Assembly (NCBI GenBank): GCA_030612405.1
Contig: JAUWNY010000003.1
Location: forward strand, 1 to 35,600
Source of the DNA: Candidatus Methanophagales archaeon
Lineage (GTDB): Archaea > Halobacteriota > Syntropharchaeia > Alkanophagales > Methanospirareceae
DNA length: 35,600 nt
Direction: 5' to 3'
Made by a program: the position numbers and the translations under genes. The notes beneath the pieces are model-generated. The model saw only the letters and a program-made list of their open reading frames with translations. It had not been told where the DNA came from and searched no databases. Positions within the stretch are counted from its first letter, which is position 1. Each line of letters begins with the position of its first letter. Positions 4,424 through 30,435 of the stretch are shown one piece after another.

Positions 4424-5443
4424 ATGAAAACGAAAGCAAAAGCAAAAGGATTGACCGTTTTGGTCATAATGGTGGCGATGTGTGCACTTGTAGCACCAGT
4501 GGCAGCGCAGTCAACGCCATTCATGATTTACGGATATGTGTCTTACGAAAATGGCACTGCGTGCAACAATCCAACGGTGAACATAACAAATTTGAATACG
4601 AACGGGGAATGGAGTGCTGATACGGATGCAGGTTATAACTACTATCAGCTCATACTTGCGAATGGAACTGACGTGAATGAGAGTGAGGTATTGCAGTTCA
4701 GTGTCACGGATGGAAGCCAGTCAAAAGTGTTTAATCATACTGTAACTTCGGGAGAGGTAAATAATGGCGGGATTTTTAATTTTAATATTACGCTTGTGGC
4801 TCTGACACCAGGTCAGCAGGTGTGGTATCTTACAGCCGATACTAAACCCGATGATGCACCAACGGCAAACGATAGTCTGAATCATAGCAAAGATAACCTG
4901 TTGCATAAAGGTGAAAACACTGGCACAGGTACGTGGTTTTATTTGCCTCATGACGATGTCGCATGGTTTTATGCAGATACCGGTGCAGAATGTGGTCTTA
5001 GTTTCGGAGTGCATAGCTGGACTGCATATATTCGCACAGAAAAAATAGATGGTGCCGAAGTGGGTCGTAACCTTACCGTTGAAATTTGTAAATTAGATAA
5101 AACCACTGGAAACATAACGGTCCTGGCTGGTAATACTACAAGTTTAAACGCAACAACAGATACTGAACATCTCTGGATTATAACGTGCGAAGATAATGAA
5201 ACTACAACACAAGATTTCAGTACTGGCGACTGGCTGGCTGTTAGATTGTCGTGGGACTGTTCAACAGATTCACTTCGTATACACTACAAATCCGACGGAA
5301 GCAGTGACTCCTACATTAAAAGCCCGTCCTCAGACCCCGGCTATCCGGTTCCGGAACTACCCACGCTGATTTTGTTCTCTTCTGGTTTGATTATACTCGT
5401 CGGCTACGTTTTGTTAAAAAGGAGGAATACCAGCAGCGATTAG
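4424..5443 (+). CDS. Secreted protein with shared N-terminal module and PEF-CTERM-like C-terminus
   Basis: Signal peptide, STPFMIYGYVSYENGTACNNPTVNITNLNT, C-terminal VPELPTLILFSSGLIILVGYVLLKRR. Confidence 0.85.
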   Translation: MKTKAKAKGLTVLVIMVAMCALVAPVAAQSTPFMIYGYVSYENGTACNNPTVNITNLNTNGEWSADTDAGYNYYQLILANGTDVNESEVLQFSVTDGSQSKVFNHTVTSGEVNNGGIFNFNITLVALTPGQQVWYLTADTKPDDAPTANDSLNHSKDNLLHKGENTGTGTWFYLPHDDVAWFYADTGAECGLSFGVHSWTAYIRTEKIDGAEVGRNLTVEICKLDKTTGNITVLAGNTTSLNATTDTEHLWIITCEDNETTTQDFSTGDWLAVRLSWDCSTDSLRIHYKSDGSSDSYIKSPSSDPGYPVPELPTLILFSSGLIILVGYVLLKRRNTSSD

Positions 5444-8768: not shown

Positions 8769-9475
8769 TCACTGTTTACTATTATGCCTCCTCCGCTCCA
8801 GCAAATACCCTGCACCAACGAGAGAGAGCGCCGCTGCAAGCATCACAAGCTGCATTAAAAACCTAACGAGCGAGAACTCGCCTTTGCCACCTCCACCTGC
8901 TTCCTTGCCCGAGACCGCACTCCCTTTCATCAACCGTCCCCGGATGGTTTTGCCACCGCTTTCTCCTGCTCCACCTTCTCCGGTGCCGCCTGCAACGCCT
9001 TTGCCCGCACCACTGCCTGAACCTTCACCTGTGCCGGTTCCCTCGCCCCAGCCGCCACCGGTGCCGCCACCTCCGCCAGGACCCCGTTCAGGGCCCGGTG
9101 GGTTGACAAAGACCGTTACAGTATCGTTCCAGATGTTGTTTCCCTCTCCATTGCCATGCATATTATTTATTAACTCCTTCACTTTATCCTCCTGGTCCAC
9201 ATCAACCGTGACATTGAACTTAATAATACCTCCTATGGATGGTGCTTTCTTTGTAATTGTCAAAGGTATGCTACCGCCATCTTGTACACCTTTTATTTCC
9301 CCAATGGTTTCATTTAAGACCTCCACTCCATCAATAGATACGGTCACATTGAAATTCCTCGCGTCACTCCTTCCTCTGTTATAAATAACCACCGGTATAT
9401 CATACGAATTCCATATTACTAATGGAGGCACTTTCTCCAACGACGGCTCGAGGTCGGGTGGGTATGTCAAATAAG
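8769..9475 (-). pseudogene. C-terminal stub 1 of a giant CARDB protein
   Basis: TYPPDLEPSLEKVPPL...Gly-rich...GKTIRGRLMKGSAVSGKEAGGGGKGEFSLVRFLMQLVMLAAALSLVGAGYLLERRR matches the last ~240 aa of the 3742-aa protein; no signal peptide. Confidence 0.75.
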
Positions 9476-9478
9476 CAA

Positions 9479-9892
9479 TTATAATCGCTCAAGCACGTTC
9501 ATGAGTTCCTCTTTATCCATTTCCTGTCTGTGCTTTTGGTCTTTCCATATCTTTCGGTAAAAGTAGAAATACTCGTAAAGCCCTGGTAAATCCCTGCAAA
9601 ATACTACTTTGTGATTCTCGATAACTTGAAACTTCATATACAGCGGAAACTCTTCAAATAGCCATACATCATATCTTTTCCCTACTACATCGAGGTTTAC
9701 ATAGATCTTTTTCAAAAGCGACCGCATCCCAGCTCTATCTCGTATCTCAGGTGCGACGACACAGAAATCTCGATCACTTCTGGTACTTAGTTGGTCTTTT
9801 GCTCCTGAGCCGAACAAAAGGACCGCAAGAACATTCTCATCCTTTTCTAAAAACGCAAAATCTATTCTATATCCATATTCCTTCTCATCCAT
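9479..9892 (-). CDS. MNT-type minimal nucleotidyltransferase
   Basis: VLLFGSGAKDQLSTRSDRDFCVV (GSxxK...SDxDF) plus downstream helical region; follows and overlaps the HEPN gene. Start set at MDEKEYGY. Confidence 0.85.
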   Translation of the reverse strand: MDEKEYGYRIDFAFLEKDENVLAVLLFGSGAKDQLSTRSDRDFCVVAPEIRDRAGMRSLLKKIYVNLDVVGKRYDVWLFEEFPLYMKFQVIENHKVVFCRDLPGLYEYFYFYRKIWKDQKHRQEMDKEELMNVLERL

Positions 9893-10299
9893 CTCTTCGC
9901 AGCCTCCAAAAAGTTGTCCAGTGGTTCTAAAAGGCACTGTATGGACTCCAAAGCCACATCGTCACTCAGCATGTTGTATTCATGGACTAACCGATTTCTC
10001 AAACCGTTAGCTTCGTTCAAAGCTTCTTTTATGCTTTTATCAACCACTTCCAACTCAAATATTTCCTCTACGTTTGTATAATCGTCTTTTGGCAGCTTCC
10101 CTTCGTCTTTTAAAATCATAGCTACTATATCCATTGAAGCTTCCGATGCTTCCTGCATGGCTTTGTAAACTGCAAGCCTCGTTTTCTTCTCCACTTCTTT
10201 TACGTCTTCCTCTTCAACCAACCAGGTTTTTATATCCCCAACTCTCTCTTCTATGTGTTCTATCTTCTCAAGATATCTCTGTAACCTTGATTTGTCCAT
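9862..10299 (-). CDS. HEPN domain protein (DUF86-like), putative RNase toxin
   Basis: All-helical 145-aa protein with R-x4-H motif GLRNRLVHEYN, adjacent to the MNT gene. Confidence 0.85.
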   Translation of the reverse strand: MDKSRLQRYLEKIEHIEERVGDIKTWLVEEEDVKEVEKKTRLAVYKAMQEASEASMDIVAMILKDEGKLPKDDYTNVEEIFELEVVDKSIKEALNEANGLRNRLVHEYNMLSDDVALESIQCLLEPLDNFLEAAKRWMRRNMDIE

Positions 10300-10814: not shown

Positions 10815-11462
10815 TTATAATTTTTCCAACTTATTCCTTAATTCGCTTGTAACAAGTCCAAAATCTGGCAATTCTTTTACCAAGTCCTTTAGTCCAACTT
10901 CCCAAAATCTGCTCGCATCTCTTAATTTATCTTCATCGAAAATCGATTCCAATTTAAATTCTATCCCTTTGAGTTTGCATTTCTCTATCAGCAACTCCCT
11001 TATTTCATTAAAATCGAATTTTTCCACCTTTAACAGTATCCAGACATCATAGTAATCTCTACTTTTGCCTCTCTGCAAAATGCTTCTTATCTTTTCAGCC
11101 AGGATTTCATTAAGAGAATATGCGTTGACATGATAATGCGCAATATCGGGATATTGAGACGCTACTATTTTAAAAACAGGCTCTGTAATAACATTCTCAT
11201 CGAAACTTATGTCAACTCTTAGCCTGTTTTTTGCATTCAACGGGCCCGAAAACTGAACATTTGCAATTATGCTGCCAGGAGTGAGATGAAAAGATTTAAA
11301 AACAAGTTTTATGGCGGATTTTCCTTCAATGCCTCTGAAAACATCTTCTAATTGATTCCTTGCATTCTTAATGTCTGAGTTTAAAGCGGTAAAATCCAGG
11401 TCATGGGAGAATCTCCACGTTTCTTGAAAATATCTTCGCTTACATTTATCAATAGTTTCCAT
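10815..11462 (-). CDS. AbiEii-family nucleotidyltransferase (toxin), probably 5'-truncated
   Basis: RYFQETWRFSHDLDFTAL...NAYSLNEILAEKIRSILQRGKSRDYYDVWILL is typical of AbiEii/AbiGii; the usual N-terminal VFKGGTxLxK segment is missing. Confidence 0.7.
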   Translation of the reverse strand: METIDKCKRRYFQETWRFSHDLDFTALNSDIKNARNQLEDVFRGIEGKSAIKLVFKSFHLTPGSIIANVQFSGPLNAKNRLRVDISFDENVITEPVFKIVASQYPDIAHYHVNAYSLNEILAEKIRSILQRGKSRDYYDVWILLKVEKFDFNEIRELLIEKCKLKGIEFKLESIFDEDKLRDASRFWEVGLKDLVKELPDFGLVTSELRNKLEKL

Positions 11463-11835: not shown

Positions 11836-12565
11836 TTAAACTTTCTTTTCCAAAGAAAGTTTATTGTTTTGCCTCCTCTTCTCCAGCCAATAACCAACAC
11901 CAACGAGAACAACAGCCGCTGCAAGCATCACAAGCTGCATTAAAAACCTGACAAATGAGAATTCACCTTTGCCACCACCACCTGCTTCTTTACCCGACAC
12001 CACGCTGCCTTTCATCAACCGTCCCCTGATGGTTTTGCCACCGCTTTCTCCTGCTCCACCTTCTCCACTACCGCCTGCTACGCCTTTACCCGCGCCACTG
12101 CCTGAACCTTCGCCGGTGCCGTTTCCCTCGCCCAAGCCATCGCCGGTGCCGCCACCTCTGCCAGGACCCCCAGGGCCAGGTGGGTTGACCACAACTGTTA
12201 CCGACCATGTCTTATTGTTGTTCGTCTCGCCATCAGGATGTTGATCATTTATTAACTCCGTTACGGTATCCTCTGTGTCCACCTTCACCGTAACATTGAA
12301 ACTGAGGACTTTTTCTGTGAGCGGAGCTTTCCTTGTGAATGTCAAATCAGTGTTACTACCCCCACTGGCTATTTCCGTAATATTTACTGTTTTTTCGTGC
12401 ACTTCCTCTACATAGACGCTGGCATTGAATCCTTTCGCCTTACTTTTTCCAAGGTTTTTTATAACCACCGGAATCTCATAACTCTTGTCCCACAGTCGCA
12501 CTCAAAGGTGTTTTCACCCACGGAACGAGGTCTGGTGGGTATCTCACGACCAAGATGGCATTTGT
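11836..12565 (-). pseudogene. C-terminal stub 3 of a giant CARDB protein, one frameshift
   Basis: TNAILVVRYPPDLVPWVKTPLSATVGQ (12476-12565) continues after a 1-nt shift near 12490 as SYEIPVVIKNLGKSKAKGFNASV...[66 protein letters not shown]. Confidence 0.75.
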
Positions 12566-12712
12566 TGGCATCAAGAGAATAGAAGTGGATAAGCCATTAT
12601 CACCAAATTCACCGGTAACGATTAACGTGGGTCTGTTCGATATTATAGGACTCAAGATAGAAGAATGGGGGACTTGTGCCGTATGATGGTTATGATTACG
12701 CGCGCAGCTCAA
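12566..12712 (+). pseudogene. Fragment of a subtilase-family gene
   Basis: GIKRIEVDKPLSPNSPVTINVGLFDIIGLKIEEWG(fs)LVPYDGYDYARS matches GIWRIKVDKPLSHSAPVTVDAGLVELKIEEWGLVPYGSYEYAHA in the 12883 ORF (~14520-14650). GGGGG here versus GGGG there breaks the frame. Confidence 0.7.
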
Positions 12713-12882: not shown

Positions 12883-15800
12883 ATGAACAAAAGAACCATA
12901 TTGGCATTGTCCGCAGTAGTTTTTGTTGCTGTGGCACTGGTTGGTTTTGTAGCAATGGCGGGCTATCAGCAATGGGTATCGGATCATGGGATTGAAGAGA
13001 ATAATACGACACTGGCGACTCCAGGCGAGGATGATTTGCTCGAAAGACCTGAAGCAAGTGATGAACAGTCCGAAGCTAATAGGTCTGTGGCGATTGAGGA
13101 GATGATTGCCAATGACACAGGTACAAATACACAAGACAACCAATCAGAAATCATAGTGGGAAAACCATTTTATCATGCTCCCACAGCAGAGTATGTCCCA
13201 GGTGAATTCATCGTCCAGTTCAAGCCAGGTGTCAGAGAGGATGCAATAAACATGATAAATTCCAAATATGGAGTTTCTGTGAAGTCTACCCTACCCTCAG
13301 GGATTAGACCTATAGGGCCTAAAGTGCTAAACGTCCCCGCTGATAAAACAGTCGAGGAGATGGTCGAAATATACTCGAATCTATCTGAAGTTGAATATGC
13401 AGAACCGAACAGTATAGGGCAGCTTTTTATGGTTCCCAATGACCCCTTTTATGACCCTTATCAGTGGCATCTCGATAACGATGACTATGGAGGAATCAAC
13501 ATGGAATCTGCTTGGGATACATCCACGGGAAACGGTGTTGTAGTGGCGGTGCTGGACAGCGGAGTGGCATATGAAAATTATGGTCCATATTGTCAAGCGC
13601 CGGATTTAGCTGGTACCACTTTTGTGCAGGGTTACGACTTTGTCAATGATGATGCACATCCAAATGACGATAATACTCATGGCACACATGTCGCTGGCAC
13701 TATCGCACAAACGACCAACAATGACTACGGTGTTGCTGGCGTGGCATTCGACTGCTCAATAATGCCCATAAAAGTAGCGAATGATACTCGTTTATGGACT
13801 GCTAAAGATTTTTATAATGGCACCCATTACGCTGTTGATCACGGTGCGGATATCATTTGTTTTGCAGGAGGCAGGAATACATCTCACAGTCTCGTAAAAG
13901 ACGCTGTTGAATATGCCTATAACAACGGAGTTACTGTCATCGCTGCTGCCGGTGAAGAAGGATATCCACCACAATATCCTGCTGCATATGATGATTATGT
14001 CATTGCAGTTGGTGCCACCCGATACGATGAAACTCGTGCATATTACTCCCCAACGGGTAGTTATCTGGATTTAGTTGCTCCTGGTGGTGACCTGAATGTA
14101 GATCAAAACGGAGATGAAAATAAGGATGGAGTTGTCCAGCAAACTTTTCCTGAAGGAGGAGATCCATGTGACTTCAACTTTACCTTGTACCAGGGAACTT
14201 CAATGGCAACAGCTCACGTTGCTGGAGTGGCAGCACTTGCAGTCGCTACCGGGGTAACGGGTCCTGATAATGTCAGAGATATATTACAGAGGTCAGCAGA
14301 AGACAAAGGGGCTCCGGGTTGGGATGAAGAATATGGCTGGGGGATCGTGGATGCAAGACTGAGCATACCAAGACCAACAACAACCATAGGCTTCTCTTCC
14401 TATGCTGACTCCGACTACTGGTATCACATATACGGTTTTGAAGTATATGGTATAGGTGCAAGCATAACACTCAGAGTATCAAAGGCTGATAAGATACTCA
14501 GTGTGCATGAGGTACTCATTGGCATCTGGAGAATAAAAGTGGATAAGCCATTATCGCATAGTGCACCGGTAACGGTTGACGCAGGTCTTGTAGAACTCAA
14601 GATAGAAGAATGGGGACTTGTGCCGTATGGTAGTTACGAGTACGCTCATGCAGCAACCGTTCACTTTCACTGCTGGCCATTCGACGATACAGACTGGACT
14701 TTTTTAGACGTTTATGGCTCCGGGTTTACCAAAATATTTGATTGGGAATTTTCTGACGGCATAAGCGAAGCGGAAAAGAATGCCGCAATGACTGCTTTTG
14801 AGCGCGGTGAGATTCCACAGCGATTATACAGTTTCATCCTGAACGGGCATGCCGGCACGAACGACATTTACGAGCCGGATGACGACTGGCACGAGTTAAC
14901 GGAAGATACCATCGGGATTGGTGAAACGCAAACACACAGCCTTCTTCCCGCTGTCGAAACCGATTGGCTGAGGTTCTCATTACCGGAAGAATCCGCGGTT
15001 ACGATGGGCATTCGCTCGCACAGTTACGCGCTCCGTGTGGAGTTATATGACTCGGCGCAGAATTATAAAGTCGGTATGACCGGCGTTACTCAGGATGTAA
15101 CGACAGAAGTCCTTCAGCCCGGCACGTATTACGTTAAGATTACGAGCGCTGCGGGTGATGACCCTGTGGACCAATATGAGTTCTTCGTTTACGTGCCTGA
15201 GCCGCCTGCTGATTGGACTGATGCACGGCATTTGGCTGATATAGAAGCGGAAGTGTGTGTTCACGATACGGATGAAATCCTGCCGCCAGCGGATACGGAC
15301 TGGTATAACTTCACGTTGTTGGCTGCGTTTGACGTTGAGATTGAAATTCGCGGCGATGAGAATAGGGATGCGGAGATGTGGTTGTATGATTCAAGCGGAG
15401 TTGCAGCAGGGACAAGCATAGCGTATGACGATAACAGTGGCGAGGGTTTGTTACCAAAAATAACAGCGCAGAGTCTTGAATCAGACACATATTATTTCAA
15501 GCTGAACTCAAAGGATGATAAATCGCTGCAATATAGTATTGTATTAAAAGCAGCAACACCCGGACAGCTCGGTGATTCTTATGAGGATGACGATACCTAC
15601 GATAAAGCCAGGCTCATAACGGATGGCGAGTTGCAAACGCATAGTTTTTACCCTGCGGGTGACCTCGATTGGGTGACTTTCACTCTGGATTCCGCAGCAG
15701 AGGTTACGGTTGAGACTTCGGGTCCCGGTGATGCGGATACGGAGATGTGGTTGTATAATTTGGAAAATTATGTTTTTGTAACCAAATGGGGTAGCGAGGG

Positions 15801-18075
15801 AAGTGGTGATGGACAATTTAACGACCCTCATGGCATAGCCGTAGATGCGGATGGCTATGTATATGTAGCTGATACCGATAATCATAGGGTGCAGAAGTTT
15901 ACCTCCTCTGGAGGATTTGTAACCAAATGGGGTAGCTATGGAAGTGGTGATGGACAATTTAAATATCCCGAAGGCGTAGCTGTGAGTGCGGATGGCTGTG
16001 TATATGTATCTGATTCCAGTAATCATAGAGTGCAGAAGTTTACTTCATCGGGAACATTTGTAACCAACTGGGGTAGCGAGGGCACCGGTGATGGACAATT
16101 TGACTATCCGTGGGGCATAGCTGTGGATGCGTATGGCTATGTATATGTAACTGAACGTAGCTTAAGCAATCATAGGGTGCAGAAGTTTACTTCATCAGGA
16201 ACATTTGTAACCAAATGGGGTAGCTATGGAAGTGGTGATGGACAATTTACATATCCCGAAGGCGTAGCTGTGAGTGCGGATGGCTGTGTATATGTAGTTG
16301 ACCGTTACAATCGTAGGGTGCAGAAGTTTACATCATCGGGAGCATTTGTAACCAAATGGGGTAGCTATGGAAGTGGTGATGGACAATTTGACTATTCGTC
16401 TGGCGTAGCTGTGGATGCGGATGGGTATGTATATGTAATTGACGCTCTTAATCGTAGGGTGCAGAAGTTTACTTCATCAGGAACATTTGTAACCAAATGG
16501 GGTAGCTATGGAAGTGGTGATGGACAATTTGACTATCCACGTGGCATAGCTGTGGATGCGGATGGCTATGTATATGTAACTGACGAGTATGATCATAGGG
16601 CGCAGAAGTTTGTACGCAGCGGGCTTAATCAAATCGCATACGACGATAACAGCGGTTCAGGTTCATACTCAAAAATAACGGAAACGCTCAATCCAGGCAC
16701 ATACAATGTCAAAGTAAAAGAAAAGAATGGTATTACGGCGGACAGTTACAATATCAAACTTCTTGTCGGAACAAGTCCGTACGCATCCTTTACCTATACG
16801 CCATCGCTTGGACTGACAACAGGAAATATTACGTTCAATGCAAGCGATTCCTACGACCCGGAGGGTAGTATCAGTTCGTATTCGTGGGACTTTAACGCAT
16901 CAGACGGTATTCAAGAAGATGCAACGGGTGTGGAGGTTACGCATCAGTACACCACTGCTGGAAACTATACGGTAACGCTAACGGTGACAGGCACGAGCGG
17001 AACGGACACGGTAAGTAAAAACGTTACGGTGAAGGCGCCGCCGGTTGCTAATTTCTCGTACTCGGGTTCCGGTACTGAAATAAGTTTCACAGATACGTCA
17101 ACTGACCCAGACGGTGGTGAGATTATAGGCTGGTACTGGGATTTTGAGGATGGAACAACAAACGGCACACAGAACCCTACGCATGTGTTCGAGCAGGGCG
17201 AGATGGATTATGTGGTAACGTTGGTAGTGATGGATAACGACAGTTTGGTGAGCAGGACAATAATGGCGGTTCATGCGGGCTCGGGTCCGGTGAACGAGCC
17301 ACCGGATGCTGACTTTACGTATTCGATTATACCGCTTGAGAATGATACGTTTCAGGTTCAGTTCAACAGCACGTCCACGGATACCGATGGCAGCGTAACA
17401 GGCTGGCTGTGGGAGTTCGGTGACGGTACTCTGAGCTTGTTGGAGAATGTGACGCATAATTATACTTCCGCAGGCACGTACACGGTAAACCTGACGGTTA
17501 CGGATGACGATGGTGCGACAGATAGCATGTCAAAGGTTACAAATGTATCTGCTTCCGTCATCTATGTCAATACAAGCGGGTGGTGGTATGAGGGTGAACC
17601 GTTTAACCCAAGTTCTACGCCAATACAAGATGCGGTAAACAACGCAAGTGCGGGCTGCTGTAATATCACCGTAAAAGATGGCATTTATAGCGAAAACGTA
17701 AACGTGAATAAAAGATTAGTGATTCAGTCTGAGAATGGTTCAGCTAACTGCATTATTAACGCAGCAAATCCAAACGACCATGTCTTCGAAGTGACCACAG
17801 ATTATGTGAACATATCAGGATTCACGGTTAAAGATGCAACTGGTTTGAATAAGACGGGAATCTATCTTTACAACGCAGACCATTGCATTATATCAAATAA
17901 CATCGCAGCAAACAACTACTATGGCATCGAACTGATAGGGCACAAATGCACCGTGAAGGACAATATCGTCCAGAACAACACGGAATATGGAATATACGTA
18001 CTCGGGAACTACAACAAGATATACTACAATGTCCTAAAATACAACGGTGATTATGGAATAAAGGTGGGTATATAA
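12883..18075 (+). CDS. Large secreted subtilisin-like (S8) protease with PPC, NHL, PKD and beta-helix domains
   Basis: Signal peptide; propeptide YVPGEFIVQFKPG; VVVAVLDSGV, HGTHVAGTIA, GTSMATAHVAG; PPC-like domains; six NHL repeats; three PKD domains (WDF.DG); C-terminal NosD-like beta-helix. Confidence 0.9.
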   Translation: MNKRTILALSAVVFVAVALVGFVAMAGYQQWVSDHGIEENNTTLATPGEDDLLERPEASDEQSEANRSVAIEEMIANDTGTNTQDNQSEIIVGKPFYHAPTAEYVPGEFIVQFKPGVREDAINMINSKYGVSVKSTLPSGIRPIGPKVLNVPADKTVEEMVEIYSNLSEVEYAEPNSIGQLFMVPNDPFYDPYQWHLDNDDYGGINMESAWDTSTGNGVVVAVLDSGVAYENYGPYCQAPDLAGTTFVQGYDFVNDDAHPNDDNTHGTHVAGTIAQTTNNDYGVAGVAFDCSIMPIKVANDTRLWTAKDFYNGTHYAVDHGADIICFAGGRNTSHSLVKDAVEYAYNNGVTVIAAAGEEGYPPQYPAAYDDYVIAVGATRYDETRAYYSPTGSYLDLVAPGGDLNVDQNGDENKDGVVQQTFPEGGDPCDFNFTLYQGTSMATAHVAGVAALAVATGVTGPDNVRDILQRSAEDKGAPGWDEEYGWGIVDARLSIPRPTTTIGFSSYADSDYWYHIYGFEVYGIGASITLRVSKADKILSVHEVLIGIWRIKVDKPLSHSAPVTVDAGLVELKIEEWGLVPYGSYEYAHAATVHFHCWPFDDTDWTFLDVYGSGFTKIFDWEFSDGISEAEKNAAMTAFERGEIPQRLYSFILNGHAGTNDIYEPDDDWHELTEDTIGIGETQTHSLLPAVETDWLRFSLPEESAVTMGIRSHSYALRVELYDSAQNYKVGMTGVTQDVTTEVLQPGTYYVKITSAAGDDPVDQYEFFVYVPEPPADWTDARHLADIEAEVCVHDTDEILPPADTDWYNFTLLAAFDVEIEIRGDENRDAEMWLYDSSGVAAGTSIAYDDNSGEGLLPKITAQSLESDTYYFKLNSKDDKSLQYSIVLKAATPGQLGDSYEDDDTYDKARLITDGELQTHSFYPAGDLDWVTFTLDSAAEVTVETSGPGDADTEMWLYNLENYVFVTKWGSEGSGDGQFNDPHGIAVDADGYVYVADTDNHRVQKFTSSGGFVTKWGSYGSGDGQFKYPEGVAVSADGCVYVSDSSNHRVQKFTSSGTFVTNWGSEGTGDGQFDYPWGIAVDAYGYVYVTERSLSNHRVQKFTSSGTFVTKWGSYGSGDGQFTYPEGVAVSADGCVYVVDRYNRRVQKFTSSGAFVTKWGSYGSGDGQFDYSSGVAVDADGYVYVIDALNRRVQKFTSSGTFVTKWGSYGSGDGQFDYPRGIAVDADGYVYVTDEYDHRAQKFVRSGLNQIAYDDNSGSGSYSKITETLNPGTYNVKVKEKNGITADSYNIKLLVGTSPYASFTYTPSLGLTTGNITFNASDSYDPEGSISSYSWDFNASDGIQEDATGVEVTHQYTTAGNYTVTLTVTGTSGTDTVSKNVTVKAPPVANFSYSGSGTEISFTDTSTDPDGGEIIGWYWDFEDGTTNGTQNPTHVFEQGEMDYVVTLVVMDNDSLVSRTIMAVHAGSGPVNEPPDADFTYSIIPLENDTFQVQFNSTSTDTDGSVTGWLWEFGDGTLSLLENVTHNYTSAGTYTVNLTVTDDDGATDSMSKVTNVSASVIYVNTSGWWYEGEPFNPSSTPIQDAVNNASAGCCNITVKDGIYSENVNVNKRLVIQSENGSANCIINAANPNDHVFEVTTDYVNISGFTVKDATGLNKTGIYLYNADHCIISNNIAANNYYGIELIGHKCTVKDNIVQNNTEYGIYVLGNYNKIYYNVLKYNGDYGIKVGI
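15775..16614 (+). repeat. Six tandem NHL repeats (about 126-141 nt units)
   Basis: FVTKWGSYGSGDGQFxYPxGVAVDADGYVYVxDxxNHRVQKFTSSG x6; the DNA string ACCAAATGGGGTAGCTATGGAAGTGGTGATGGACAATTT recurs four times. Confidence 0.9.
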
Positions 18076-18364: not shown

Positions 18365-21300
18365 TTAAACTTTCTTTTCCAAAGAAAGTTTATTGTTTTG
18401 CCTCCTCCTCTCGTGCAAATACCCAACCCCAACGAGAGCCCCAGCCGCGGCAAGCATCACTAAACGAAGCAACCACGCAACCAATGAGAACTCACCTCTT
18501 CCTCCTCCTTCCTCTTCACTCCACGCTGCTGTGCCTTTCATCAACCGCCCGGTAATCGTCTCACCTCCTGTTCCACCCACAGCACCTCCTGCTCCACCCG
18601 TTGTCCCTCCTCCGCCACTTCCACTTCCACTTCCTTCACCACTGCCTGTTCCCTCTCCCTCGCCATCACCATCTCCGTCTCCGCTTAGACGTCCCCAACT
18701 TGGTTTAACCTCGACTGTTACCGTCTTGTTAATAATCTCGTTATTCTCCTCTCCATTGCTTTTCCCTTGCTTACCACGACCATGTTTATTTATCAACTCC
18801 TTCACACTATCCCTCGTGTCCACCTTAACCGTGACATTGTGCTGGACAGTGGTTTCCACAAGTTGTGCTTTCTTTGTGAAAGTCAAAGTTTTACTACCGG
18901 GTTGTTGTTGATATCCTACAGCACCTTCTATTTCGTCAATGGTTTCGTTATACTCCTCTCCATCAATAGATACGCTCACGTTAAAATCTTTCGCCTTGCT
19001 CAGTCCCCAATTGTTTATATCTATGGGTATCTCATACGGGTTCCCTACTGTCGCTTTCAATTGTGTTTCTACATACGGCTCGAGATCTGGCCACCACGTT
19101 ACATTCAAAATTGCGTTTGTCAAGAAGAAATAACTGCCTCTGCTCTGTATCGCTGCCCAATTATTCGCTTCCACATCCACATATTCCCCCCGTTCACCCC
19201 GTTCTTCATCCCATATCAGAGCTATATCTCCTGCTGTATGATACTTCCAGAAATGACCTTCGCCACTTTGTTCAAATATCGGTTCTCCTACCCTCTCGTT
19301 ATTAAATAGAAGAAGATCACAGAAAGGATCTCCATAATAATCATCAATTGGAGGATAATACTGATATTGTGATAAAACAGTTATCAAAGTTGCATTCGCC
19401 AATTGCGGGTCCTCTACACCTTTAAATTCAACTATGCTTGTGCATTCATCATATTCAAAGCCCGTAGGCCATGCATTATTCTTTGCCATTATTATGTCGC
19501 CCCCTTCTCCGGTATAATACTCCGTTAATAAACCATCGCCATCATTATAAGCTACAAAAAGCCCCATTCCTGCTACACCATACAAAAAATCTACTCCTGT
19601 TCCGTTAAATGATGCTCTCGCCTCCAAGCTATCATTTGCACCAGTGGTATTGAGGATGCTTTGAGGAATATCATACGCGTATGTCGCATAAGTATAATTA
19701 TCTCGAGTTGCATCAGGAAACTCTTCACTTATCGGCGATACAGAGCTACCAACTGATTCCGGCGGATGCTCGCTAACAATAAATTCCATATCGTCGACTT
19801 CTGGAAGTTTTCCGAGGAAATAATTAGCGTGATCAGGGTCTTCTTCTCGACCCCATAGGTAAAGATACAAACGAGCATAAACAGGTGTCGCACCAACTGG
19901 AATCCTGTTCTCGAAAGTAGTTTGATAACTTCCGCTGGCATTGTAGGTTCGTTGGGGTCCGCTGGCATCGAAATATACTCCACCATCTACCGTCCCTGGA
20001 GGAAGAAGTACAGTAAGCGTTTTTGTCGCCTTATAGTTTGGCTCTGCTACTTTCACTAAGGTTGGAGGTAGTCTATTATTATCCTCACCGTCTTTCTTCC
20101 ATGTTTCATTAACAACATTATCAGGAATGTCCACCGTAGCACTCACGTTATAAAATCCTCTCTGTGGCATTGCCCAGTTGAAGAGTTCCACTGGCTCTTC
20201 TTCACCTCCCGGAAGGCATGTAACCTTCGTAGAGGAGACTGTCACGTTTGACACGTTTATTGCAACACTGAAGTTCTTAGCACCAACTTTACCTGCATTC
20301 TCTACCATTATCTTCACTGTAAGGTTCTCCCTCACAACAAGTTTATCCCATGCTACTTTGTTTCCATTTTTAAAATAGAATATCATATATTTTGGTGTCA
20401 AATCCGGTCCTATCGTTTCAGGATTTGGCTCATGCTCATTATTCCCCTCATTCAATTCCTCTACTCTGCCTCTTGGATGCTTTGAATCTGTAGGGTCCAC
20501 AATCACCGTCACATTATAAATCCTGTTTGGGTCAAGTATTTCATAAGGATACTTCTGAAATGTCCAATTTATCGAACTGTTTGGACCTAACGATGGAATC
20601 GTCTCATCCCACGTTTCATTCCCGCTCGTGCTGTTCAATATCAATCTCACATCGAAATCAGTAGCAGGCCGATTACCTTCATTCTTTATAACCGCTCCCA
20701 CTTTGCAGTTGCAATCGCCCGCAGGTTCAGTATATATCTCACCCACACTCAAGTCCGGACCCGCTGTTACTGGATACTCGTTGTTGCCTTCCTTTATCTC
20801 CTCTATCTCACCCCACGAATACTCCTGCTTCGAATCCGCAACCACGGTGAAATTACATGTTTTATTTTCTAATCCCAATGTTCGAAGCTCGCTTTCATTT
20901 ATATCAAATGTAACATTCCGCTCCTCACCACCGTATATCGTCTGATTTTCGTCAATCCGCTTCGATTCCTCATACACTACGGTATCATTGTTCCATGGTC
21001 TTACCTCAAGCGAGACATTGAAATCATATACCGGATACACTATCCCCTCATCTTCACTCAGTGTCTTATCATTCGCTATTGTTGCTGTAACGGTTTTTAA
21101 CTGCCCTCCATCGGTATAATCCAGGTTCATCGCTTTCGGTATCAAATCCGCATAAATCAATGCCGTCCCGGTGTTGTTATCTTCTCGCTGCTCTATCACA
21201 CCACCATAAAGATGCTCAACATCAGGTGGGTCAACCGATACGTTTAAATTCATCAGCCTCTCGTATTTCCCACCCTCTAATAACGTGATGTTCGTGCTAT

Positions 21301-24300
21301 CACTCGCATTCAGCTCCTCTATCATCCTTATAGCCTCATCCTTCCACCATAACTCCTTCACATCGTAAAACGCATTCGCATAATCTATTATCGTTGTGTT
21401 ACCATCCACCCAGGGTGTGCATACGTATCCTGTTTCTTCGTTACGGTATGTTTTTACCCTATTGCCTTCTCCATCCTGGATGTCTATATAAGAATTCACA
21501 CCTGTGGTATCGAGCGAATTGAAACAGATGCGTATTTTTGATGCACCCTCCTTACTATATACATTACCACATCCGTATCCGTCAATGTAAAAATTCGCAT
21601 TTGTATACTCTATGCTTATGGTGTCACCATCCCACCATGATGTCCACACATTCTCCTTTTTCTTGCCCGCGTATGTCTCTACATGATGCAGTTTCCCATC
21701 TTCATCTATACCCCTTATCTCTATGTATGAATTTGCACCCGCGGTATCAAGGGAAGCGAAATGAACTCTTATCTTTGATGCTCCTTTCATCGTTATAACA
21801 ATGGGTGGTTCCGAAGCATTGGAGATGTTCAAACTGCCCGTTTTCAATGTCCGATATTCATGTTTAATCATCTCAAGACTGACATTGAAATTCTCTGATG
21901 CATTCTTAACTCCTTCATTCGCTATTTCCACCGATGCATTCGTATCTTCACGGGTGGGTGAATGGAACTTCAGGACGGTGAGGTCTGGATAGTTCAACCG
22001 GATTTCCCTCTCCATATCATTATTGCTCTCGTTCTTCTCCCGTATTTCGCCCAGCGGGTCTACTATCGCCTTCACCACATATTCCGGATTGCCATCAACG
22101 CTTATGTTCGCCCACGTGGCGTTCACAGGTTTGCTTTCGCCAGGGGCAAGCGACAATTCAGTATGATTTAGCAGTTTTATGTATTTTATTCGTTTCACAT
22201 TCACGGTTTCTTCTCCTACGGGTATGCTTCTCTCTCCTAAGGAAATGTTCCAGTCGTTTGGTGGAGCAGAGGAGATATTATCTCTTATCACTTCCATCCA
22301 CAAATCCACCGAGAAGTTCGCAGTTGCAGTTCCGCTGTTACGCACAACCGCAGTAATCGTCACGTTGTCGCCATGACCAGGATGCCAGGGGTCCTGTCCC
22401 GGAGCCGGATTCTGAACACTGTAATTTAAATCTACAATTCCCAGCTCTTTCGTTGCATTTACGCTCAATGTGCGAACATAAGTGTTGTTCGTTTCGTTTA
22501 TCTCGCTTGTTTCATCATACGGGTCTATTGTAACGGTGATGTTATGTGTTCCGGTAGACGCGTTCCATAACGCAGGGATATTCTTTGACTCGCCGCACAG
22601 GTCTGTAATATTCCCTGACTCATCCCACGCAACACTCGCATTCAATGTGACATCGGTCTCACGGAACTCCTTCATAGTGGTATATCCACGGAGATTGAAA
22701 TTCGTGTTTATTGTGTAAATGTAAGCGGTATCCCCGGGACAGAGATTTTTATTTACTATTGATAACAAACTCTCAGTCGGTCCTAATTTATGGTATTCCC
22801 AGGTATCTCCATTAGAAACATTTACTTCTTTGTTAACGTTAGCCCACAATATCTCTACACCAGTTTTATTAAAAACGTGTATCTCCGGAAGAGGCAGCTT
22901 ACCTATATCAAAAGCTATCGAACTGAAATTTAGCTTTATCGCATCCACTCCCGGGCGATATATTATTGTCAAGTTCTTGTGAGAATCTAATAAAGTTTCA
23001 CCCGGCGATACCGGTAGATATGACAGATTATCAGATAGGCGCAAAAATCCGGGCAAACTGTTATTTAAATAAAATTTGTGAATGCGTGTTTCGGTTTCAT
23101 AATCCACGAACCGCACTTTTGTCGTGCCATTTCTGTAAACCTTTGCTGTGCCATTCCGGCATGATAAATTTATACTCTTATTTGATAATTTCTCTGCTAT
23201 CTCTTTCAATCCTATATTGGTTACGTTTGCGGTTATATTTATCTTCTCAACGTCAGAAATGTTTTCTGTTTCCGGAATTACTTCCGTAACGGTGAAATCC
23301 ATCGTTGGCAGTACCTGCATCTCTCTTGTCACGATATTATCGCTCTTGTTGTCCACATCCTCTGGCACTTTGCCCCCAGGGTCGATGAGCAGAAAGACCG
23401 AGTGATTGCCTGCTGTTACGTTTCGCACGGTTATTGAAACATCTGTTGAAGAATTGGTGTTCAACGTTAGATTCTCATCACGGGTTAGATTAGATTTATA
23501 AACCGGATAAAAGGAGATATCATACGGAAATAGCTCATTAACCTCATATCTTTTTATCTTTACTGTATCCCCGGGAACATGAACCCAGCATGTTTCGTCA
23601 GTTCTCGCTACTTCCGTATCATTTTTATCATATACCGTAAGCACCTGGTGCCAGGTCACATGACCGTATGCGTCTTTTTCCAAAAGTGTCTTATTATGCG
23701 TGTCTATGTAGACATATATGGAGATGGCATTGCCATAGGATATGGTATTGTTTGTTTTAAGACCGAAGAATGAATTCTGTAACTGATTATTTATTGTAAC
23801 TGGTGGATATGTATCCGCAGGCTTATAATCAAACAGCAATGCGACACTGAAATTCGTTGCGTTCACTTCTCCTGAATTGTTTATCACTGCGCTGATGTTC
23901 ACATTGTCCTCATCGTAAGGTTGCGCGGGGTCAAACAGTATTGTTCCGGTAAGTCCGTGAAGCCCTTCGGATTTCCAGGTTGCGTTTCCACTGACTTCCG
24001 CACCGTGAACATATATCTCCATCGCCGCTATGTTGTTCGTCTCGTTCGTCTCGTCTATTTCATTCCCGTAATCCACCTCCGCCTTCAGCACATGCTTGCC
24101 CACTGTTGCAGTCCAATTCGCAGTCTCGTTGAGCAACTCATCATCATCAATGAGCATCCGCACACTGAAATTCTCCGTTTCATTCACGCCTATATTCGTG
24201 ATATTTGCAACTATTCTCACGGTGTCATTATCTCTTACGGTATCATTTTCTCCTATTTGCGTGCCGTTTAACCATAATCCTATATCTTTGACTGAGAGGT

Positions 24301-27300
24301 CCGGAGTATTATTGTTCACCGTTATGTATCTTGCAAAAGTGTTATTCAATTCGTTATATTCCTGAATTTTATTTTCAGGGTCTATCGTAGCAACGATAAG
24401 GCGTTCACCAACCGTTGGTGCAGTCCAGTTATCAAAAATAGGAATAATCTTTTCCTCTGTTCTGTTAACCGACAGGTTATAAATGGTGTTAGTTGCGTCT
24501 TCGCTCGGCTCCAGATAATAAACCTTGCTCACCCGTGCCGAAGCATTGCCCATCGCCTCTATCGTGACATCATTGCCAATTATCCATGGCGTCCATCCGT
24601 GGAAATTCTCATAATAACTTAACTCATCCTTGAATATCACACCGCTACCTCCTATCACTTCTATCTGATTGCTACTGCCATTGCGAATAGAGACCTTACC
24701 CATGTCTATGTCCGTATCCAGATATAGACGCATAGCAGTTGCATTTTCCCTTTTTATCTGTGCCTTATCCTGGCCGGGATGTAAAGAACCATATACTCTG
24801 CTGTCCGTGTTCTCAATGTGCCTGTTCGCACAGTCATAGACGACCAGAGAGACATTTGTGGCATTCTTATCTCCATAGTTCGCAACACCAACGCTAATAT
24901 TCATGTTCACGCTCTCGTTTATCTCCTTCTTATCAGGTTCAGGTTCAAAAGTAATATTTGTGATGGTCAGTTCTGGCGCATTCACGTGTATCGGCTGGAT
25001 ATACGTGTTGTTCGATTCGTTGAGTTCATCTATGTTATTCTCGGGGTCCGCAACCACGATTATAGTATGATTGCCACCGATTCGCACATCGTCAAAATCC
25101 CACACGTACCATGTAATCTCTGCATACCCTGTTCCGTTACCAGCCGCGAAATCCACACTGTCGTTCCCTATCTCATGCACATTATCAACCCTGTCAACGT
25201 AGAAACTCACATCTGTTTCGCCACCCCGATTCGCAAGGTTTGTTATGTTCAGCGTAGCGTTCACTGTTACGTTGATGCCAGATGTTAAATGAGCCGCATC
25301 AAGCGTTTCATTATTCATAGCGAACGACAAATTCTGGATGGAGAAGTAGAAGTCGCGAGCGCGTTTCACATGCACATCCTTCTCCTTTAAATTGTTATTC
25401 GTTTTCTCCTCGTATTTTTTGTTGTTTAGCGAATTGATTTTTACTTCTATTGTGTAATCCTGTCGCCCTCGTCTGCTTGCATTTAATGTCCAATTCACGG
25501 GGAGAACATCTTCATATTCGCTTGCATTAAGACCGTTAATAAATATTGGTTTGGTTTCAACAATCACTTTGTTACCAACAGTATTGATGTAGTATTCTGT
25601 TAAGTTTACCCAGAACTCTGTGGCATTCTTCAACCCTAAATTCTCTATTACCGCGGTGATGTTCACCTCGTCTCCGTCAAAGTATGTGTTATTAACCTCC
25701 AAATCAGTTACCGCAAGGTCTGTCCCATATAAATATGTTTCATTTGTCGCCACTTCATCCTCCACATTCGCAATGAGCGTGTGATTCTCTCCAATCAGGC
25801 TCCTCTCAATGGTTGTATAACTGGTGCCTACCAGATCGTTATAACTTACTTTTAGTGGTAAACTCGCATTCCACGTTGCGTTATATGATGCGTTGCTGTT
25901 AGCAGGTAATGTAAAAGTTTCATTACCCAGTTGAACCTGATATTTATCTATTAAAAACCCAAAAGTGCAGTGCTTAATCTTTTGTTTAGCTTTTACTTCT
26001 ATGGTCTTCCCCACTGTCCATTCAGTCCATACATCTTCCCAACGCCTCTCAGTGCAGATACCATTTGCGTTATGGACCTTACAATCACCACAGGGACTGT
26101 CGAAATTAATCTCGGACACTTTTATTGGTTGTCCTTTTGCCACATCTATGCTCTTAACAATAAAATTCACGAGCTTGGCATCGACATAAGCATTTATGCT
26201 TACGGATGGATTTCTACTTACATCTATATCTATATATTTTAAATGAACTCTTATCGGTAGATCCTCAGGTTGAGATATTAGACAATCCCAATCGTAAGTT
26301 GCATACTGCTTACCACGAATACCCAAATTTTTCGCCACATAGAACCCCACGGTGCTGTTCACCGTTTCATTCCCCTTATTCTCTATCACTGCTGTTACAT
26401 TAACCTTATTCTCAATTACTGGCTTTGAGGGGTCGAGCGTGAGGTTTGTAATGTGCAACTGTGGAGAGAGGACATGCAATACGCAGCTCTTCACATTGTT
26501 CCCGGCTTTAGCAGGGTCTTTGAGGATGATGGATTCACCTATTTTCGTGAGGTCACAGGGCCATTCCGCTACTTTGTTATCAGGGTCAACCACCACATAT
26601 ATAAGATGGTCTCCGCCGGTTATGTTCGCTCTCCACGTAATGGGAACACTTTTATTTTTATCCGATTCCACATCCACATGTCCAGTTCTTCCAATTTCAA
26701 TATATCTCTCGTCCTTAGAACCAACAAAATCGGTGCTGTTCACATAAAAACTTACGTTCACACTACCGTCTTTCAAGCCTAAATTGGCTATTGTCGCATT
26801 TATCGTCACATTCCCGCCTTCTTTTATATACACTGGAGAAACTCTCACATCTTCTACTGCAAAGTCATACTCCGGCTTCACCGATATGTTTTCAAACAGC
26901 TTATTATTCGTCTCGTTATTATCCGTATTATCAAAAGGAATGCTTATGGTTATCGTGTGCTTGCCAAACTCTCCGGGAGCCCATGTCACGTTGATGTCCT
27001 TGCTCTCACTGCTGTTCAGACGCGGAATGGTCTTGCTGAAGAATACAGTACCGCTTGTGTTACCTTCACCGAGCCCATCGCTGAGCATTACAGTAAAGTT
27101 GGAGGCATCACGTGCACCAAGGTTCGCTATTGTCACTGTTATGGTCTCATTCTTATCACGATAGCAACGCCTGCCACCGAACTGCCCACAGGGTATTTCT
27201 AAACTCAGGACTGCTAAATCGGTGCCGTTAACGAATATCTCTTGGGGCGGTAACGTGTTGTTTGTTTCGTTAAGCTCGACAAATACATTGTCCGGGTCTA

Positions 27301-29593
27301 TCTCGACAGATATGTTATGACGTCCCGCACCTCCATCGGTTATATTTGCCACCCACCACATATCTACAACTCTCGGCAGGTCCGTGAAATTCAACGGCAC
27401 TGCGGTTTCGTTGACTATTATATCATCACAATAGGCTCTTACTGTAGCGGTTCCATTCCTGACACCGTAGTTTGCAACTGTTGCATTTAACTCAACTGTT
27501 TCATTAAGCAACGGGTCATTAAAAGAGATGTTAGTGACTGTGAAATCAAGTGATGGATTTACCGTCACCTGTTCAGTTAAGGTGTTATTTTTTTCATTGG
27601 ACTCGGTTATTTGATTGGATGGGTCAACCATGACGGTTATATTATGCTCTCCAGAGGTTGCCCAGCCCATGTATTGGTCTGACAAATTCCATTTCACGGG
27701 ATCGGAAGGAATAGTGGTATGGTTCCCTGCGTCTATGGGTACAGTCACATTAGCAAGCAACGCTTCGTATCTGTCAACCGTGAATTCAGCCGATTGTGAT
27801 TCTATCCTGATGGTATCGTCAGATGCCCAGTCTGTCCAATCACTTAATAACTCAACTCTCGAATCATTTTTATCATAAATCATGACCCAACCGCTGATAT
27901 AAGAGAAATGAACCCTTATTTTGAGAGCTTCTGGGAGTATGAGCGTATCGTTAATTGACTGCCCCCACAAATATTCATCCCAGGTTCTTGTTATTTCTAT
28001 ACTCTTACTATCATAAAATTCCACATTGGTTGTTCCTTCTTTATCTCCTGTGTTAGCTATCGTTGCGTTTATCTCCACTATGTCGCCAATCAACAGTGGT
28101 TCAGTTCGATTGAAAGTTATATTATTTACTGCGAAATCAGGCACGCCCACGAATACAGGTATGGTAAGGTTGTTATTCAGTTCGTTCGATTCATTGATTT
28201 CGTGATTGGAATCTGCGGAGGCGGTGATGTTGTAACTTCCTTCTGAAGGAGGTTTCCAAGGGAATGGTATGTTTATGTATGACCCAAGTTCCAAGCCAGG
28301 AATTCGTGTTCCGTTCTCATATCCGGTTTCATTCTCCCTGCTTACGGAGAAAGAGACGTTAAACGTTCCTGAAGCACAAGTGCCGTTATTCCATACGGTA
28401 ACATTTATCACGTTCGTTTTATTCACTAATAGCGGTGGTATAGATATTCCTGATTCGGGTATAACCAAATCAGGCATGCCTGTGTTGATGTCCTCTACGA
28501 TTATGCCACGTTCAATCTCCGTTTGATTTACAATATGAGCGACAGTTCCAATCGAAGTTCCGTTCTTGCTTGCGTTTATTTGCAGTACATCACCTGCATT
28601 CACAAATGTAGAACTCGTTACGACTTGATAGAAATCGGATTCGGTGCGATTATCGGCGACGAGTTCTTCAGAAGTATTCAAATTGGTTATGACCACAAAA
28701 GGTGCCGTGCATGCACTGCTATTTTCAATGGAGAAAACAAAACCGAAGATATGAAAGGGCGATGGCGGTGTGAGATCTGAAGACAGGATGAGTAAAGGAG
28801 TTGGAGATGGTGTAGGCGTGGTTATCGGTGAAGGACTTGGTGTTGGACCTGGTGTAGGAGTGGGCGTTGGTGATACTTGAAGTGATACATTCCAACGCCA
28901 TGTTTGCATGGCGGTTCCGTTTTCATTCGTGACAACTGCTGACACGTTCCATGTGCCAACTGAGGGACTTGTATTCGTGTAGGATGCTTCTGTCACGCTT
29001 TCGGTTGTCTGAACTTCTGTTCCATTTATCTGCCAGCTAACGTTCACTAGCTGGTCTGTTGTGATATTGAAGGTTCTTGTTTCTCCTCCGGTATCGCAAA
29101 CAGGCGAAGAAGGAGCGAAAGATGTGATGTTGGGTGGTGCTGTTGGTGCTGGAGATGGTGTTGGAGTAGGTGAGGGGATTGGCGTTAAAGTTGGCGTGGG
29201 ACACGGAGTTGGTGTTGGTGAGGGTGAAGGAGTAGGAGTAGGCGATGGACCTGGCGATGGTGATTGTGTGGGGGTGGGCGTAGGAGAAGGCAAAGGCAAA
29301 GGCAAAGGCAAAGGCAAAGGGGTAGACGTCAAAGTTGGTGAAGGGGGAGGTGTCGGTGTTGGTGAAGGTGTTAGGGATTGAGTGGGGGAAGGGGAAGGAG
29401 TTGGAGTAGTAGCAGGAGCGGAGTCGGGAATTTCTCCATTCGTGGCATTGCTTGCATCACTAAATAGGGAAAGAGATGACTGCGGCATCGCAGGGCTCAT
29501 CACACTCACTAAACATACTGTTATCACCACTAAAGTGCCGATTCCCCGCCAGTTACACTTCTCTTTCAGTGTTATCTTATTCGCTTTTTTCAT
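18365..29593 (-). CDS. Giant 3742-aa CARDB-repeat surface protein with DUF3344-like region, Gly-rich linker and C-terminal TM anchor
   Basis: Uninterrupted ORF; N-terminal TM/signal, Pro/Ser/Thr-rich linker, shared [31 protein letters not shown] module, about 17 or more CARDB units, [16 protein letters not shown]... (DUF3344-like), Gly/Glu linker, GRLMKG...[31 protein letters not shown]. Confidence 0.9.
29286..29317. repeat. Hexanucleotide (GGCAAA)n tandem repeat encoding Leu-Pro on the minus strand
   Basis: GAAGGCAAAGGCAAAGGCAAAGGCAAAGGCAAAGG; encodes [10 protein letters not shown] in the giant protein linker. Confidence 0.85.
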
Positions 29594-29669: not shown

Positions 29670-30435
29670 AAAGAAAACCTGTGCTAAAAGAAAAAACCGC
29701 GAAGATATTTTTAGTCACGGTTTTTACCGAAGGTAAAAGGTTATTGGTAAAGCTTTCACATCAATAACAGTAATTTTTATACTTCATGCGATAAAAACCG
29801 AAAATCATTTTATTAACATTGATATATAATATTTAATATCTTACATAAAGTAAGATGAAAGGCGAAGATATGAGCGAGGGGAAAGGAACCAAAAAGCTCG
29901 GAATCGGTAACGGCGCCTATTGCGTGGTTAGAATCCGAAGGGGATAAAAAGGGGACGGGGGAGGAAATGGTAGAAGAACCGGATGGGCCAAGGAATGTGG
30001 GATTTAAACCCGATACTTTAACTAGAACAAAGAATATCGCAACTCCTAAAAATGTCTGTGCCAGGGTTCTCAAAAATGAGAAAGAAATAAAAACCGAAAG
30101 TCTTTTATATGGTTTATCATAAAACTTTTATATTTATGCTATCATGCATATACATAAGAAGCGAAAGCGATAAAAAAAGCGGAAGAAAAACGAAAAAGAA
30201 TGCCCCCCATAGGTTGCTCAAGCTTTCCTGAAGTTTGACGCGAAGCGTTTTGGTCAAGCTTACCTAAAGCTTGATGCGTGGTGCGAATCCACGAGGGGGC
30301 GAAAGCTAAAAGAAGAGGAGGCAAGAAGGAAAGAAAGAATAGGAAAAGAAGCCCGAAACTAAAGCAAACTTTCTTTCTTTAGTAAAGGTTTCTTTCGCAG
30401 AAAGAAAAGTTTTAGGAGGTGAAAAAGAAAAAAAA
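29670..30435 (+). repeat. Leader module copy B (upstream of gene 30436)
   Basis: Colinear with 1431-1726 and 2278-2600, without the 1961-2220 inverted repeats. Confidence 0.75.

Follow-up and report, generated by a model that had tools for sequence, protein, structure and literature searches.

A subtilase domain with an intact triad and an altered oxyanion hole and substrate cleft in an archaeal surface protein: a candidate pseudoprotease

Pseudoproteases are usually spotted by a missing residue of the catalytic triad, and a subtilase that has a perfect triad, yet lacks the oxyanion asparagine and Ser125 and carries an altered cleft, would pass for an active protease in annotation. Such a domain is encoded in the first 35,600 nt of a Candidatus Methanophagales contig (hereafter the window), and the locus raises the question of whether the domain still hydrolyzes proteins. 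The source is one metagenome-assembled genome of 2.2 Mb in 183 contigs.

The domain and its active site

The gene occupies nt 12883–18075 of the forward strand, with all 1730 codons open, and its product is predicted to be secreted. A profile search lays out the protein, from the N to the C terminus, as a hydrophobic segment, a prodomain, an S8 domain, a linker with repeats, NHL repeats, PKD domains, and a short NosD/beta-helix stretch. The prodomain is of the fervidolysin N-terminal type (nt 13177–13410, forward strand; residues 99–176; PF22148, E 1e-16), and the catalytic domain is a Peptidase_S8 domain (nt 13528–14343, forward strand; residues 216–487; PF00082, E 5e-49). An AlphaFold2 model of the two, produced from a 59-sequence alignment, has a mean pLDDT of 93, and its best fold match is thermitase (1thm), with a TM score of 0.94 on the target and an identity of only 34%. 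Thermitase is a canonical active protease of S8A, and the profile and fold matches place the window domain in the same fold family. When the catalytic domain is modelled from the single sequence the pLDDT falls to 35; the high confidence of the first model thus comes from the family alignment on which it depends, and does not by itself prove that the variant folds.

The initial annotation had reported an intact triad, which is borne out. Asp32 lies in VLDSG (nt 13549–13563; codon GAC 13555–13557), His64 in HGTHVAG (nt 13678–13698; CAT 13678–13680), and Ser221 in GTSMATAHVAG (nt 14194–14226; TCA 14200–14202), all on the forward strand and within the DSG, HGTH, and GTS motifs of S8A. The two unusual residues that it described are also in place. 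In AAAGEEGYP (nt 13942–13968, forward strand), glutamate (GAA 13954–13956) directly follows AAAG at the position of the oxyanion Asn155, and in GTSMATAHVAG, alanine (GCT 14212–14214) stands at the position of Pro225.

Three further features had gone unnoticed: a 9-nt deletion beside the oxyanion position, and changes in both of the strands, 100–102 and 125–127, that sandwich the substrate in the subtilisin structure. The first strand (nt 13789–13797, forward strand) reads Arg-Leu-Trp where most relatives have Gly-Ser/x-Gly; GSG has become RLW, with Gly100 (conserved at 98% or more among relatives) replaced by Arg and Gly102 (at 90% or more) by Trp. In L012, the nearest relative, these positions already read Gly-Ser-Tyr. 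The second strand reads I-C-F-A-G-G-R (nt 13855–13875, forward strand), and in an ungapped alignment the SLGG of relatives at 125–128 is replaced by AGGR, with Ser125 changed to Ala (GCA 13864–13866) and Leu126 to Gly. Asp32, His64, Ser125, Asn155, and Ser221 are the five key residues of subtilisin (PMC11593635), and two of them, Ser125 and Asn155, are lost in the window domain. It therefore departs from active S8A enzymes in the oxyanion residue, in Ser125, and in both substrate strands.

The rarity of these changes was assessed in an alignment of S8 domains from the family-genome loci, 80 loci of a species-genome collection, and 13 viral loci. All 123 homologue rows with a letter at position 155 have Asn there, position 125 is Ser in 123 of 123, and position 225 is Pro in 118 of 119, the sole exception being Ser. 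A pattern scan across 397 genomes of the phylum (Ser as TCN) finds GTSMAxAHV once, in the window, while GTSMAxPHV is matched in 127 of them. The survey thus rejects Glu155 and Ala225 as common natural variants. A misaligned oxyanion asparagine is likewise rejected; an alternative was looked for in the AAAGEEGYPPQYPAAY loop, and none was found. The loop, at 8 residues before PA, is as long as in other family members. Among the 25 columns conserved at 98% or more, four deviate in the window domain (Gly100, Ser125, Asn155, and Pro225), which is the joint highest count among full-length rows and is equalled by L034 alone; L012 scores above it solely because its C-terminal piece forms a separate row. 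L034 (genome G015) has an S8 domain with the odd motifs HGTAV and GTSFSTPLAAG and is possibly a second degenerate subtilase. A single-sequence query returned no close viral relatives of the window protein.

Descent, selection, and the origin of Glu155

The closest relatives of the S8 domain share 66–72% identity with it and are canonical. Orthologues L013 (G024), L014 (G035), L012 (G037), and L041 (Methanocellales MAG STD1_76) have the same prodomain and S8 domain as the window protein, at 65–71% identity, and share with it an inserted DQNGD segment, which reads DQNND in L041. All four have AAAGN or ACAGN, Ser125, and GTSMATPHV, whereas the window differs at each. A maximum-likelihood tree places the window beside L012 with support of 100/97, in a group consisting otherwise of L012, L013, L014, and L041, each canonical at 155 and 225. 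Since the relatives at 66–72% identity and the enclosing clade are canonical, all or nearly all of the active-site changes are derived on the window branch. The altered form occurs in one genome only, and a search of five further genomes of the genus found no close orthologue. The window protein and its canonical orthologues make a clear pair for asking which part of the subtilisin machinery goes first, and whether a protease that no longer cuts other proteins may go on processing itself.

By the Nei-Gojobori method, the catalytic domain gives a dN of 0.128 and a dS of 0.774 against L012, and a dN of 0.163 and a dS of 0.884 against L013. The resulting dN/dS of about 0.17–0.18 indicates that the fold is still under constraint. 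Lineage-specific changes, counted at sites that are identical in the other four orthologues, fall on 8 of 28 active-site positions of the window domain versus 5 of 144 elsewhere (odds ratio 11, P = 1.4e-4, a value to be taken as indicative, the active-site segments having been picked after the motifs were seen). The corresponding active-site counts are 0–2 in 20–22 for L013, L014, and L041, and 5 in 25 for L012. Outside the active site, the window domain has fewer such changes than any sister. The pattern points to an active site that was rebuilt or lost while the fold was held.

The glutamate had been described as a replacement of Asn by Glu. Its presence at position 155 stands, but a simple swap does not describe the event, since the loop has also lost three codons. 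Comparison of AAAGNEYEKGNTPQYP in L013 with AAAGEEGYPPQYP in the window reveals an in-frame 9-nt deletion beside the Asn, where the orthologue sequence is AAAGNEYEKGN. Against L013, L014, and L041, deletion of NEY/NNY costs 1–2 fewer mismatches; this placement removes Asn-Glu or Asn-Tyr and brings a loop Glu next to Gly. With L012, L015, and L042 as the reference, the placement that is cheaper, by one mismatch, deletes YLN/YQK and adds an Asn-to-Glu substitution. The margins between the placements are thus 1–2 nucleotides, and the deletion possibly took the Asn codon itself. Under either placement, the alignment puts Glu at structural position 155 in a loop of ordinary length. Although the form comes from one MAG, a sequencing error is unlikely to account for several in-frame codon-level changes together with an exact 9-nt deletion.

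Function of the S8 domain

We favor, with a probability of roughly 0.55, the reading that this large cell-surface protein contains, in its S8 domain, a pseudoprotease of recent origin or a near-dead protease. Judged from the sequence, what has most likely been lost, or become extremely slow, is the normal hydrolysis of other proteins. A carboxylate in the position of Asn155 would stabilize the tetrahedral intermediate poorly, and with Arg and Trp in the 100–102 strand and an altered 125–127 strand, peptides would no longer dock in the S2–S4 sites. The domain, possibly with its prodomain still attached, would then be a folded module for binding or structure that adjoins the NHL, PKD, and beta-helix parts, and it probably acts as one, with an effect like that of known pseudoproteases. 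The initial annotation had left three outcomes side by side, a slow protease, a ligase, and an inactive scaffold; the last is now favored, a slow or self-only protease is the runner-up, and the ligase finds no support.

The intact triad and the retained prodomain speak against a pseudoprotease. Nevertheless, the intact triad is weak evidence either way, since a random choice of four of the 25 conserved columns for loss would spare the whole triad with a probability of 58%. Subtilases with a replaced oxyanion Asn are informative here. PC1/3 with Asn changed to Lys (N309K) is secreted and removes its own prodomain slowly, and has no activity in trans; kex2 with Asn changed to Asp is markedly impaired; PC2 (PCSK2) naturally carries Asp and is active, which counts against the pseudoprotease reading (PMC4182778). 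PC2 had been offered in the initial annotation as a precedent, and it does provide an acidic oxyanion residue, but PC2 and PC1/3 N309K have a single replacement, whereas in the window domain Glu is accompanied by a loop deletion and further active-site changes, with at least four near-invariant positions altered together.

The CspC and CspA pseudoproteases of C. difficile have kept the subtilase fold while losing catalysis, and in CspC the prodomain is not removed (PMC6636752). These proteins lost two triad residues, whereas the window domain keeps its triad and has its losses in the oxyanion hole and the substrate strands. With no triad residue replaced it is not of the CspC type by that definition, and yet it may work like one. 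A more specific proposal, which we regard as tentative, is that this is a natural archaeal subtilase selected for a non-hydrolytic role, either as a module for binding at the surface or as a domain that processes itself a single time, and that it has shed its oxyanion hole and substrate cleft and kept the full triad and prodomain.

The main rival to the pseudoprotease reading is early decay, in which a protease that has become dispensable still has an open reading frame but a drifting active site; we consider it unlikely, yet the strongest of the alternatives. Several observations accord with decay. Orthologue L012 has an in-frame TGA, as does L015, a partial match. A frameshifted remnant (GIKRIEVDKPLSPNSPVTINVGL...) of this subtilase's own post-catalytic region lies just upstream of the start, at about nt 12525–12711 on the forward strand, which suggests a decayed tandem copy. 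The NosD-like part stops early relative to L012, the gene is patchy within the genus, and among the other S8 genes of the genome at least one is canonical. Against decay, every codon of the gene is open, the changes outside the active site number only 5 in 144, the dN/dS of the catalytic domain is about 0.17, and changes would not cluster in the active site under plain decay, although relaxation shows first at functional sites.

A less probable alternative is a protease that acts only in cis, slowly cutting off its own prodomain once with the intact triad and leaving other proteins uncut. In its favor, the triad and prodomain have been kept, and PC1/3 N309K sets an example of a subtilase that removes its own prodomain and is inactive on other substrates (PMC4182778). 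However, the prodomain tail would be held by strands that are themselves altered, and the prodomain junction reads EPNSIGQL instead of the usual EPNYxxxA, with Tyr changed to Ser and the P1-region Ala to Leu.

An active protease with unusual chemistry, for instance one that acts at low pH, where its oxyanion Glu would be protonated, seems slightly less probable still. Sedolisins, which belong to the same clan, also use Asp at the oxyanion position, and the loop around Glu155 has a length within the range of other family members. Active PC2 is a further case in its favor (PMC4182778). Nevertheless, a mechanism based on an oxyanion acid leaves the changes at Ser125, Gly100, Gly102, and Pro225 unexplained. 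A natural peptide ligase or transpeptidase resembling the engineered subtiligase (S221C/P225A), which the initial annotation raised on account of Ala225, is very improbable and was rejected: although Ala at 225 is one half of the pair, subtiligase needs Cys221 and P225A mainly gives space for this bulkier residue (PMC7921005), while the nucleophile of the window domain is a natural Ser, and its substrate strands and oxyanion hole are disrupted.

Surface proteins and other features around the locus

The neighborhood of the gene is rich in surface proteins. A giant protein of 3742 aa with 13 CARDB stretches is encoded at nt 18365–29593 on the reverse strand. Two shorter CARDB ORFs on the same strand (nt 8769–9470 and 11836–12501), which have no evident signal peptide and are 86% alike over 300 nt, have 3′ sequence in common with the giant gene and look like fragments of genes of that type. 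Between them, also on the reverse strand, lie a HepT-like/nucleotidyltransferase pair of the toxin-antitoxin type (nt 9479–10299) and an AbiEii-type gene (nt 10815–11462). An intergenic stretch occurs in two copies about 28 kb apart, at about nt 1460–2600 and 29750–30375, which are 74–92% identical in pieces.

At locus L014, a 182-aa ORF upstream of the subtilase has a signal peptide and a free-standing subtilase prodomain and stops before any catalytic domain; its product may resemble an inhibitor, or the ORF may be a remnant. Downstream of the same subtilase, a 282-aa ORF encodes what is, judged by eye, an exosortase/archaeosortase-like membrane protein. Proteins with a PELP motif, a transmembrane segment, and a basic tail, as in sorted surface proteins, are found both at L014 and in the window (nt 4424–5443, forward strand).
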